From a virus, in the IMG/VR virus record IMGVR_UViG_3300046167_000120, positions 1 to 25,732 of that record: DNA of 25,732 bases; one strand, given 5' to 3'. The position numbers and the translations under genes were made by a program. Of the stretch, positions 19,655 to 22,450 are shown piece by piece. Within the stretch, counting starts at the first letter, position 1; each line of letters begins with the position of its first letter. The notes under the pieces are model-generated. The model was not told where the DNA came from and ran no database searches. It worked only from the letters and a program-made list of their open reading frames with translations.

Positions 19655-20036
19655 CCCTAAGAACAGGCCAACGCTGTGTGCTTATTGTAAGCGCCCAGCA
19701 GGTCCGTTTTTAAAAGAGGATGGAGAACACTGGCTTGGAGCGTGCTGTATGGCTCATTTAAAAAAGATTGGAGAGGGAGAAAGACTACCCAACAAAGCAC
19801 AATTAAATGATTTAGGGATAGAGTATTCCATAGCACAAACCAAAGATTTATATACAAAACTAGCAATAGAAGAAGATCAAAAACCATTACATAAATGGGA
19901 AAGGGATAAACGAAAAAAGATCTTTACTAATATAGTTAGGGAATATCTAAACTGGGCAAACGTGCAAGCCGAGTTAGATGACGAGAGAGCTGCAAATGGA
20001 TTTAACAAAGTACCTGAAAAAAGGCGTAGTCTATAA
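19638..20036 (+). CDS. Zinc-finger protein overlapping SSB end
   Basis: Taking the ATG at 19638 gives 132 residues; an upstream ATG at 19608 is also in frame. The later start is preferred because GAGG lies close to it and it overlaps the SSB gene by only 17 bases. The N-terminal part has CAYCKR and, after a gap, WLGACCMAHLKK, which could form a small zinc finger. The rest is charged helix. It has no recognised family. Its end overlaps the primase-helicase start by 41 bases. A DNA-binding accessory factor for replication is plausible. Confidence 0.6.
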   Translation: MTYHFNPKNRPTLCAYCKRPAGPFLKEDGEHWLGACCMAHLKKIGEGERLPNKAQLNDLGIEYSIAQTKDLYTKLAIEEDQKPLHKWERDKRKKIFTNIVREYLNWANVQAELDDERAANGFNKVPEKRRSL

Positions 20037-20496
20037 CGACTTAGGTTTTAGTACAGGAAAGAGTACACACGAATTAATAAACGAGATGCAAGCACAAGGA
20101 TTGCTTGTAGACTTCTTAGAAATTACTGGCGAGATAATCAGAGTGCCAGTCAAAGCAATAGCATCAAAGCCTGACTCTGGGCGACAGAAGTCTGGATATT
20201 ATGTAGTCAACCAGGTTGGCGAACATATGTTTTGTACTTATGGTAATTGGAAAACTGGTTTTGAGGGCAAGTGGTCAAGCATAGATACTAACCAACTTAG
20301 TATTGTAGATAGACAAGCACTACAAAAACAAATGGAAGAGGCTAGTGCTAAGTCGCGAGCAGAAAGGAAACAGAGACAAGATGAAGTTGCAATTGAGGTA
20401 GAAGAACGTCTTAAAATTTGCCACGAAGCAACTGAACATGAATATCTCACGAATAAAAAAGTTAAAAGTTATGGTTTGAAGGCAGTTAAATGGTAA
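19996..20496 (+). CDS. Primase-helicase, N-terminal part (frame 1)
   Basis: These 166 codons, with the start chosen at 19996 behind GAGAG (six-base gap; an ATG at 19978 is also in frame), encode the start of a TOPRIM primase. The protein begins MDLTKYLKKGVVYNDLGF. Later come the HPxLxxKxVxxxGL-like segment EYLTNKKVKSYGLKAV, which is conserved just before the TOPRIM core of phage and plasmid primases. A TAA at 20494 ends the frame. The next residues expected for the family, GNLIVPVY, are encoded at once in the +1 frame. The protein thus looks split by one base and should be read with the following entry. Confidence 0.75.
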   Translation: MDLTKYLKKGVVYNDLGFSTGKSTHELINEMQAQGLLVDFLEITGEIIRVPVKAIASKPDSGRQKSGYYVVNQVGEHMFCTYGNWKTGFEGKWSSIDTNQLSIVDRQALQKQMEEASAKSRAERKQRQDEVAIEVEERLKICHEATEHEYLTNKKVKSYGLKAVKW

Positions 20497-20527
20497 TTTA
20501 ATTGTTCCTGTCTATTCTACTACAGGA
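20478..20527 (+). other. Frame-change site with stop codon and hairpin
   Basis: GAAGG (20478-20482) resembles an internal Shine-Dalgarno element. AAA (20488-20490) can be moved one base to AAT, which leads straight into GGT AAT TTA and the conserved GNL. The frame-1 stop TAA is at 20494-20496. Nine bases later TCCTGT (20506-20511) pairs with ACAGGA (20522-20527). This arrangement could drive a programmed +1 shift. A one-base insertion or sequencing error would look the same. Confidence 0.5.
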
Positions 20528-21826
20528 CAGATTCGTTCTCTACAGACTATCAATAAAAAGGGCGAGAAAAGGTTTAAGTCTGCTTCAGAAATCAAAGGTA
20601 ATGTATTTTTAATTGGTACTACCTTACAAGATCTAAACAATATAGAAAAATTAATTTTAGTTGAAGGCTACTCAACTGCCGCTTCAGTATATGAAGCAAC
20701 CCAAATTCCTGTAGCTTGTGTATTTAGTGCCAACTTCTTGTTGGATGCAGCCTCTAATTTACGCAAGCTAACAGGTGCTAGATTTATTCTCGCACTTGAT
20801 AATGATGAGAGTGGAGTGGGAGAGAAGAAGGCGCAAGAGTGTTGTGCGAGTGTGCCAAATACAGCAGTAAGATTACCGAGCGAGCGCGGAGACTATAACG
20901 ACTTATATTTAAAACATGGGTTAGATAAAGTAAGAGCCGAATTAGTGGATCACAAACTAGGAATCCAAAAGTATGCGATTCGTAATCTAGTTGGTAAGCC
21001 TGAGCCACAAAAGTTTTTAGTAGACGGATTGATACCTATTGGTAAGCCTGGACTGTTAGCGGCTAGTGGTGGGGTTGGTAAGTCCCTAAGTGTCATACAG
21101 TTAGCTTTAAGAATAGCGTGCGGAGGTGGGCGCTGGTGGGGAAAAGATGTAAAAGAGCGCGGAAATGTAATAGTTCTTTGTGCTGAAGATGATTTACCAG
21201 AGATACACAGAAGGCTTGATTTATTAGACCCAAGAGGAGAAAGATTTAATAGTCAGTATGAAGTTTATGTATTTCCAATTCCAGAACAAAAAGAACCAAT
21301 GATATTGTTAAGAGAAGAAGGTATAACACCACAGGCAACTGAACTTTTAGAGGAAATATCTTCTATACCAAATTTAAAATTGGTTTGTTTTGATCCTCTG
21401 CAAGCATTTACAACAGGGAATGTTAGTAGTAGTAATGAAGTTGGCCAGTTATGGGGTTCTTATTGCGCAAACATATCAGCTAGACTCAAATGTACAACGC
21501 TCACAGTACATCATTTAAACAAAGCTGGTCTTACAGTTGATTCAGATGACTCTATGGTGCAGAGAACTAGTGTGAGAGGTGCTTCAAGTTTGGTCGACTC
21601 ACAAAGATTCTGCCTGACAATGGCTCTTGGAGATGTTGAAACTTGTGAGAGGATATGCGAGGAGCAACGAGTACCATACGACAGAATGGCCGTTGTGAAA
21701 GCATCATTAGTTAAATCTAATTCTGGCAATGTTGATTACAGTACCAAAACATTATTTAGAAAGAATGGTGTACTAGAACCATTAGAAGAATTACAAAATC
21801 CTATGGCACTTTATGATAATTTTTAA
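20480..21826 (+). CDS. TOPRIM + RepA-type helicase part (frame 2)
   Basis: The frame is open from 20480. The first usable start, TTG at 20738, lies inside the TOPRIM domain, so this is not a sound gene on its own. From 20492 it reads GNLIVPVYSTTGQIRSLQTI, then LVEGYSTAAS (TOPRIM Glu, 20663), then LALDNDESG (Asp-x-Asp at 20798-20806). The C-terminal domain is a RepA-type hexameric helicase: Walker A in SGGVGKS near 21070, Walker B LVCFDPL near 21390, and TVHHLNK near 21510. Read with the preceding part through a +1 shift the protein would have about 609 residues. It would unwind DNA and prime at a phage origin. Confidence 0.85.
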   Translation, partial: RQLNGNLIVPVYSTTGQIRSLQTINKKGEKRFKSASEIKGNVFLIGTTLQDLNNIEKLILVEGYSTAASVYEATQIPVACVFSANFLLDAASNLRKLTGARFILALDNDESGVGEKKAQECCASVPNTAVRLPSERGDYNDLYLKHGLDKVRAELVDHKLGIQKYAIRNLVGKPEPQKFLVDGLIPIGKPGLLAASGGVGKSLSVIQLALRIACGGGRWWGKDVKERGNVIVLCAEDDLPEIHRRLDLLDPRGERFNSQYEVYVFPIPEQKEPMILLREEGITPQATELLEEISSIPNLKLVCFDPLQAFTTGNVSSSNEVGQLWGSYCANISARLKCTTLTVHHLNKAGLTVDSDDSMVQRTSVRGASSLVDSQRFCLTMALGDVETCERICEEQRVPYDRMAVVKASLVKSNSGNVDYSTKTLFRKNGVLEPLEELQNPMALYDNF

Positions 21827-21836
21827 ACTAATCGTT

Positions 21837-21942
21837 GGGAACTTTAGGGACATACTAGGGAAGCTAAGGGACATACTATACACTCAGATGCCCAACACTA
21901 GGGTAGGAGATGCCCATATATCCATACATATACATATGTATA
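21837..21942 (+). repeat. Phased GGGA repeats and palindrome (possible origin)
   Basis: GGGA begins at 21837, 21847, 21858 and 21868, so successive steps are 10, 11 and 10 bases. Within this, AGGGACATACTA is repeated exactly at 21846-21857 and 21867-21878. AGATGCCCA is repeated at 21886-21894 and 21908-21916. TATACATATGTATA (21929-21942) is a perfect 14-base palindrome. Direct repeats in phase beside a palindrome, just behind a replicative helicase gene, suggest a replication origin or operator array. The role is inference. Confidence 0.6.
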
Positions 21943-21943
21943 G

Positions 21944-21993
21944 GAGAGCAATCCCCTTGAGGGGGATTGACTCTCTGGAAAGCGCGAACGCTT
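21944..21993 (+). other. Two hairpins before the winged-helix gene
   Basis: GAGAG plus CAATCCCC pairs with GGGGATTG plus CTCTC (21944-21975) with a 5-base loop and one bulged A. AAGCG and CGCTT (21980-21993) enclose a CGAA loop. No T tract follows, so this is not a simple terminator. It may be an origin structure, an RNA regulator of the gene at 22007, or a processing site. Confidence 0.6.
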
Positions 21994-22006: not shown

Positions 22007-22450
22007 ATGAGAAGATTTGGACAAATAGATAAAGCCTATTGGTGGATTACTGCTCACATCGAAAGCGAGCGAGGGGAGAAAACAGCATTGATACCCATAG
22101 CGCTTGCTAGAAAGGAATCAGACTTCTCGCGCGTGCGCCAGATCGTTTGGCATTGGTATCGCTCGGAGGTTGCAGGCAATGAAGATCTATCTATGACAGC
22201 TAGATTCGTTGGTTGGGCATTGTGCGAGCGCTGGAGGTATGAAACCTGGAGTTCGCATGATGCTATTAGTTATTATGCAAAGATGACAGCAGTAAATCGT
22301 AAAAGCGTTGGGAGAGCGCTAGCGGAGTTGAGCGAGCAAGGATTAATATGGATAGTTTTGGAGGGCGAGCCAAAGCGCTTGCGGAAGTCCCAGAGCGGAG
22401 GGAAGAAACATTTTTTATTAGTTGGTTTAGCGGAGTTGGTTCGTGAGTAG
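22007..22450 (+). CDS. Winged-helix-type protein of the replication region
   Basis: Starting at the ATG at 22007 behind CAGGAGAAAG gives 147 residues. An upstream TTG at 21992 is in frame, but lies in a hairpin. The C-terminal half carries a probable winged helix (TAVNRKSVGRALAELSEQGLIWIV); the N-terminal half has an odd cluster of Trp and Arg (YWWITAHIE, VRQIVWHWYRS). The pattern resembles plasmid or phage replication-initiator DNA-binding domains, but I cannot name a family. Codons are richer in G and C than in neighbouring genes. The end lies about 20 bases before a G-rich stretch. Confidence 0.7.
   Translation: MRRFGQIDKAYWWITAHIESERGEKTALIPIALARKESDFSRVRQIVWHWYRSEVAGNEDLSMTARFVGWALCERWRYETWSSHDAISYYAKMTAVNRKSVGRALAELSEQGLIWIVLEGEPKRLRKSQSGGKKHFLLVGLAELVRE

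Follow-up and report, generated by a model that had tools for sequence, protein, structure and literature searches.

The window, that is, the whole stretch of DNA analyzed, comprises the 25,732 bases of a virus record in IMG/VR and has podovirus head and tail-spike genes and a recombination gene block. Among well-known phages its terminase is closest to those of the epsilon15 group, and the source is taken to be a podovirus with an epsilon15-like terminase. A gap of 180 bases separates a primase-helicase gene from the gene of a small protein, dn, and contains, in order, an array of repeats, the motif ATATCCAT, the inverted repeats HP1 and HP2, and a ribosome-binding site ahead of the dn start. 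The features of the locus are:

19978-20496, plus strand: N-terminal part of the primase-helicase, in a separate frame
20495-21826, plus strand: primase-helicase, TOPRIM and AAA_25 (RSF1010 RepA-like) part, assigned by profile matches; upstream neighbour of the array
21833-21853, plus strand: iteron unit 1, CGTTGGGAACTTTAGGGACAT, from segmentation of the array; kept in relatives
21854-21874, plus strand: iteron unit 2, ACTAGGGAAGCTAAGGGACAT, from segmentation of the array
21875-21895, plus strand: iteron unit 3, ACTATACACTCAGATGCCCAA, from segmentation of the array
21896-21917, plus strand: iteron unit 4 (22 nt), CACTAGGGTAGGAGATGCCCAT, from segmentation of the array
21918-21925, plus strand: anchor ATATCCAT, closing the array
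21924-21941, no strand assigned: HP1, A+T-rich inverted repeat with arms 21924-21931 and 21934-21941 and loop AC, from allele comparison and stability
21943-21976, no strand assigned: HP2, G+C-rich hairpin with a lower stem of 6 pairs, a one-base bulge (A21970), an upper stem of 8-9 pairs and loop TGA, from covariation and folding
22007-22450, plus strand: dn, 147-aa winged-helix protein, probable iteron-binding initiator, from HTH_36 and PHROG matches and linkage to the array

The helicase part of the primase-helicase matched AAA_25 with an E-value of 1.4e-31, and a related gene of a WO phage is annotated as 'similar to RepA of plasmid RSF1010'. The primase part, joined to the helicase, matched phage DNA primase families. 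The frame of this gene breaks at about 20480-20496, where the window differs by one base from six relatives; two of these have one uninterrupted frame over the gene. The split is either an assembly error or a real frameshift.

The four units of the array (21833-21917) measure 21, 21, 21 and 22 nt and, counted from the right, are stepped by 22, 21 and 21 nt. An earlier note on this DNA had listed phased GGGA motifs, two repeats, a palindrome and a hairpin as separate elements. All of them exist as stated. GGGA occurs at 21837, 21847, 21858 and 21868 (steps of 10, 11 and 10), the 12-base repeat AGGGACATACTA at 21846 and 21867, 21 bases apart, and the 9-base repeat AGATGCCCA at 21886 and 21908, 22 bases apart. 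What did not stand is their separateness, as repeats, palindrome and hairpins make up one structure: the 12-base and the 9-base repeat both belong to a single four-unit array, and the GGGA step of 10 or 11 is half its period. When adjacent units were compared, the array had a repeat score of 40, against a mean of 24.4 (s.d. 3.1) over all window positions; this value, the window maximum, was attained only at 21829-21831, and never in 5000 dinucleotide shuffles of the array stretch. Likewise, shuffling the gap 5000 times gave no phased GGGA run. With a repeat score far above the window mean and absent from all shuffles, the array is not a product of chance. In arrays of some relatives (L081, L126, L050 and L055), units of one array were found to have inverted partners, AAGTTCTA with TAGAACTT and GGGAGTGTT with AACACTCCC, which may give the array as a whole dyad symmetry.

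Relatives were retrieved by searches with the helicase and dn, and all those sharing dn were metagenomic assemblies. The whole architecture was observed in about 90 distinct IMG/VR relatives, mostly uncultured and mainly marine viruses. The searches also found two loci from bacterial MAGs, one with the label Pelagibacter and one with the label Crocinitomicaceae. Conservation of the spacing had been set beforehand as the test able to refute a functional reading, and the spacing proved to be conserved: four units at 21-22 nt, plus both hairpins, recurred in 95 distinct arrays, in which 259 of 285 unit steps were 21 or 22 nt. Mean autocorrelation of 89 distinct arrays was highest at lag 22 (0.51), and smaller maxima stood at lags 44, 21 and 11. 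The array thus has what is general in iteron origins, tandem direct repeats in the range of about 17-23 bp whose spacing is conserved. One relative (L029) had five units when inspected by eye. The sequences of the units fall into unrelated groups, for instance GGGACATACTAGGGAAGCTA, CATAACTATAGTAGAACTTGGA, TGCGACAAAAGTGGTACCTGCT and GCTTGTAGCATAACGCTACAAC, and the order array, ATATCC(A/G)T, HP1, HP2, dn was constant across relatives with unrelated iterons. ATATCC(A/G)T stood at the equivalent place in every relative long enough to reach it, including those with wholly different iterons.

Given this variation, the partner with which the array changes was sought in discordant contig pairs, which share ancestry and are not independent but agree in direction. 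Where helicases were <5% and dn >25% different, the mean array distance was 0.53 (53 contig pairs); where dn was <10% and helicases >15% different, it was 0.10 (40 contig pairs). Overall, the correlation of the array with the type of helicase was about as strong as that with the type of dn. As judged from these comparisons, the array goes with dn, not with the helicase, where the upstream genes changed by recombination or cassette insertion. Such coupling would be expected between a DNA-binding protein and the sites it recognizes; physical linkage alone could also hold array and dn together.

The dn protein itself has features of an initiator. HTH_36 was matched by all 21 aligned dn proteins (best 2e-06; the window dn, at 8e-05, lies just under the curated cut-off), and four PHROG 'replication initiation protein' families were matched weakly (E 0.0001-0.06, best 1.3e-04); one of these families has a match to lambda O as well. 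A winged-helix gene thus adjoins the array, as in iteron origins, with initiator matches in PHROG that are weak. Among relatives of solved structure, SlyA matched at chance level only, and the phage collection searched held no cultured relative of dn. The AlphaFold2 model of dn had a mean pLDDT of 61.5 and was confident only in the helical core.

A winged-helix protein whose gene lies directly downstream of an array that co-segregates with it could also be a regulator, in which case dn, or another repressor, would control dn transcription through the units, with no origin function. We consider this unlikely. An operator needs no two long, strictly paired hairpins between itself and the gene, no convincing sigma-70-like promoter was found within or after the array, and dn is more like initiators than repressors. 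The earlier note had offered a multi-site operator as the alternative to an origin. That idea was weakened because no second array or convincing second site was found in the five genomes scanned: array-strand sites elsewhere scored at best below the shuffled maximum, and single reverse-strand hits (13-15 bits, versus shuffled maxima of 12-14) were isolated and without an array. Operator and origin functions coexist in many iteron plasmids, and autoregulation of dn by the array is compatible with an origin role.

The inverted repeats provide a second line of evidence. The 14-base palindrome of the earlier note, TATACATATGTATA at 21929-21942, is perfect over 14 bp, but its zero-loop form is particular to the window allele; the inverted repeat common to the relatives has arms 21924-21931 and 21934-21941, separated in the window by a 2-nt loop. 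HP1 aligned poorly by columns and was compared allele by allele. The relatives contained 29 arm/loop alleles, nearly all Watson-Crick over the full arm, with loops of 2-6 nt; a perfect hairpin of at least 7 pairs arose in 38 of 5000 shuffled segments. Because loop length varies, the two arms of HP1 are unlikely to be read by a dimer at fixed spacing. At the 25-bp scale, ATATCC/HP1 is within the least stable ~1% of the window's stretches, placing an A+T-rich candidate unwinding element beside the array, as in iteron origins; at 50 bp it is not exceptional.

The hairpin said to follow the palindrome with 13 pairs was found at 21943-21976 (HP2), G+C-rich and with 14-15 pairs. It folded as single-stranded DNA on either strand with a z-score of about -6. 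Double changes were seen in 11 of the 13 pairs tested, with 93 cells scored as double changes. Apart from the loop-closing pair, the 12 pairs of the stem below it held no one-sided G-U change. Covariation was 0.553, versus 0.208 in shuffles, and sliding the partner strand reduced it to at most 0.16. An intrinsic terminator was considered here and rejected, as the hairpin has no T-run and none was detected. RNA helices usually tolerate, and normally show, G-U pairs. The Watson-Crick double changes, essentially without G-U in the stems, thus support a DNA-level role of both hairpins, and the strict pairing of HP1 and HP2 points to a role as DNA.

Strictly Watson-Crick double changes and variable arms, as observed, would also be produced by template switching in quasi-palindromes, which would perfect functionless inverted repeats by mutation and leave the iterons as the only elements that matter. 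Of the origin reading, this explanation challenges the hairpin part alone, and we hold it to be improbable: over about 50% divergence of the dn protein, position and arm length were kept (mostly 7-9 pairs in HP1 and 13-15 in HP2), as were the flanking ATATCC and, in most HP2 alleles, the one-base purine bulge. Alternatively, HP1 and HP2 might act as 5' untranslated RNA structures regulating dn translation, the units being incidental. Their position directly ahead of the ribosome-binding site and the dn start codon, and the one-base, one-sided purine bulge in most HP2 alleles, would suit such a leader. It is nevertheless very unlikely in view of the pairing just described (double changes in HP2 with no one-sided G-U, Watson-Crick arms in nearly all HP1 alleles); moreover, no match was found in Rfam and a leader leaves the iteron array unexplained.

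Many relatives carry 150 to 1,700 extra bases between helicase and array, and none between array and dn. In several of them an exchangeable DNA-modification cassette (N6/N4 methylase, Dam, C5 methylase, Mom family), absent from the window, lies directly upstream of the putative origin:

L026, 1667-3355: modification cassette, helicase to array
L013, 5123-6055: modification cassette, helicase to array
L063, 6096-7376: modification cassette, helicase to array
L037, 6085-6660: modification cassette, helicase to array
L056, 6101-6754: modification cassette, helicase to array

In four others (L035, L004, L011 and L031) the insert, of about 150-170 nt, holds a small zinc-ribbon-like ORF (MNCWxC...). 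Although this exchange of modification genes at the helicase/array junction could suggest a recombination or cassette-insertion site in place of an origin, that is the least probable of the alternatives, since in the relatives read the insertions lie upstream of unit 1, not inside the array or hairpins, and no integrase or invertase was recognized beside the array in the window.

Combined, these observations indicate that 21833-21976 is probably an iteron-type replication origin of the podovirus. The phage origin proposed in the earlier note gains support from the conserved spacing, both hairpins, and the flanking primase-helicase and winged-helix genes, the latter with initiator matches; activity as an origin is deduced from these traits. 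The reading fits a single-copy array beside an initiator-like gene, an unstable A+T-rich neighbour and a candidate for loading, the primase-helicase, encoded next door. In the mechanism that we propose, dn would bind the four units, which, two helical turns apart, would all lie on one face of the DNA, and the resulting complex would strain and open the adjoining A+T-rich ATATCC/HP1. At the opened stretch the TOPRIM-AAA_25 primase-helicase, which the phage encodes in the gene next upstream, could then be loaded, and HP1 and HP2, kept as DNA inverted repeats whatever their sequence, may serve when single-stranded as loading or priming signals. GC skew was dropped as an origin marker, and the candidate site is unmarked by it. 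Cumulative skew climbs all round two complete circular relatives, and the flip at 22.5 kb in the window is the place of leftward genes; skew is uninformative on the origin because nearly all genes point in one direction.

A bolder version, which we regard as doubtful though worth stating, is that HP1 and HP2 are obligatory as DNA hairpins and recognized by their shape, whatever their sequence. As single-strand priming signals for the TOPRIM-RepA-like enzyme they would allow an IncQ-like strand-displacement start in a tailed dsDNA phage, and iterons and initiator would be exchanged together as a specificity cassette, with helicase and hairpins as the constant module. No origin like the iteron-and-hairpin site of the window was found described for marine phages in the literature searched, of which coverage was incomplete. 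To our knowledge, origins of uncultured marine podoviruses have rarely been identified from sequence. If the origin reading is true, the site should be recognisable in many environmental viral genomes by four 22-nt units, ATATCC(A/G)T, an A+T-rich inverted repeat, a bulged hairpin and an HTH_36 gene. The relatives would then represent natural experiments in origin specificity, in which iterons and initiator change together and the hairpins change sequence yet stay paired; the strict Watson-Crick pairing would make a DNA-hairpin role directly testable.

Repeat-rich noncoding DNA was also found in cultured phages directly behind related TOPRIM-RepA-like primase-helicase genes:

Rhizobium phage RHph_Y3_1, L281 3435-3740: GGGAAC 9 times in 306 nt
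Alteromonas phage PB15, L282 4213-4663: GGTTCA 13 times in 451 nt
Salicola phage CGphi29, L283 4234-4475: GGGACA 6 times in 242 nt

The expected counts were 0.1-0.2. By contrast to the four 22-nt direct units of the window, these short repeats occur in both orientations, and the next gene is without an HTH_36 match. Their like placement supports the site behind the primase-helicase as an origin position, and the three gaps are possibly candidate origins too.

In the lambda origin the O protein acts with four iterons of 18 bp and an A+T-rich stretch of 38 bp (PMC3349717, PMC7466680). The window site resembles it in having four iterons about two helical turns apart (steps of 20, 24 and 23 in the annotated lambda record versus 21-22 here), an A+T-rich stretch after them, and a DNA-binding initiator (here predicted) encoded at the same place. 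It differs in that the array lies upstream of dn, whereas the lambda iterons are inside the initiator gene; in that dn, of 147 aa, has no match to Phage_rep_O (PF04492) and no significant one to lambda O (hhalign probability 0.1%); and in that two hairpins follow the array and the phage has its own primase-helicase. In plasmid RSF1010, RepC binds the iterons, RepA unwinds, and RepB primes at ssiA and ssiB (PMC6925257). This IncQ oriV shares with the window site iterons accompanied by inverted repeats, a small separate iteron-binding protein (predicted in the case of dn) and a RepA-type hexameric helicase, assigned here from AAA_25 and the RepA-like annotation of the WO phage relative. Unlike RepB with its ssi sites, the primase of the window is of the TOPRIM type and joined to the helicase. 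By analogy, the window site would work like both the lambda and the RSF1010 origins and belong to neither.
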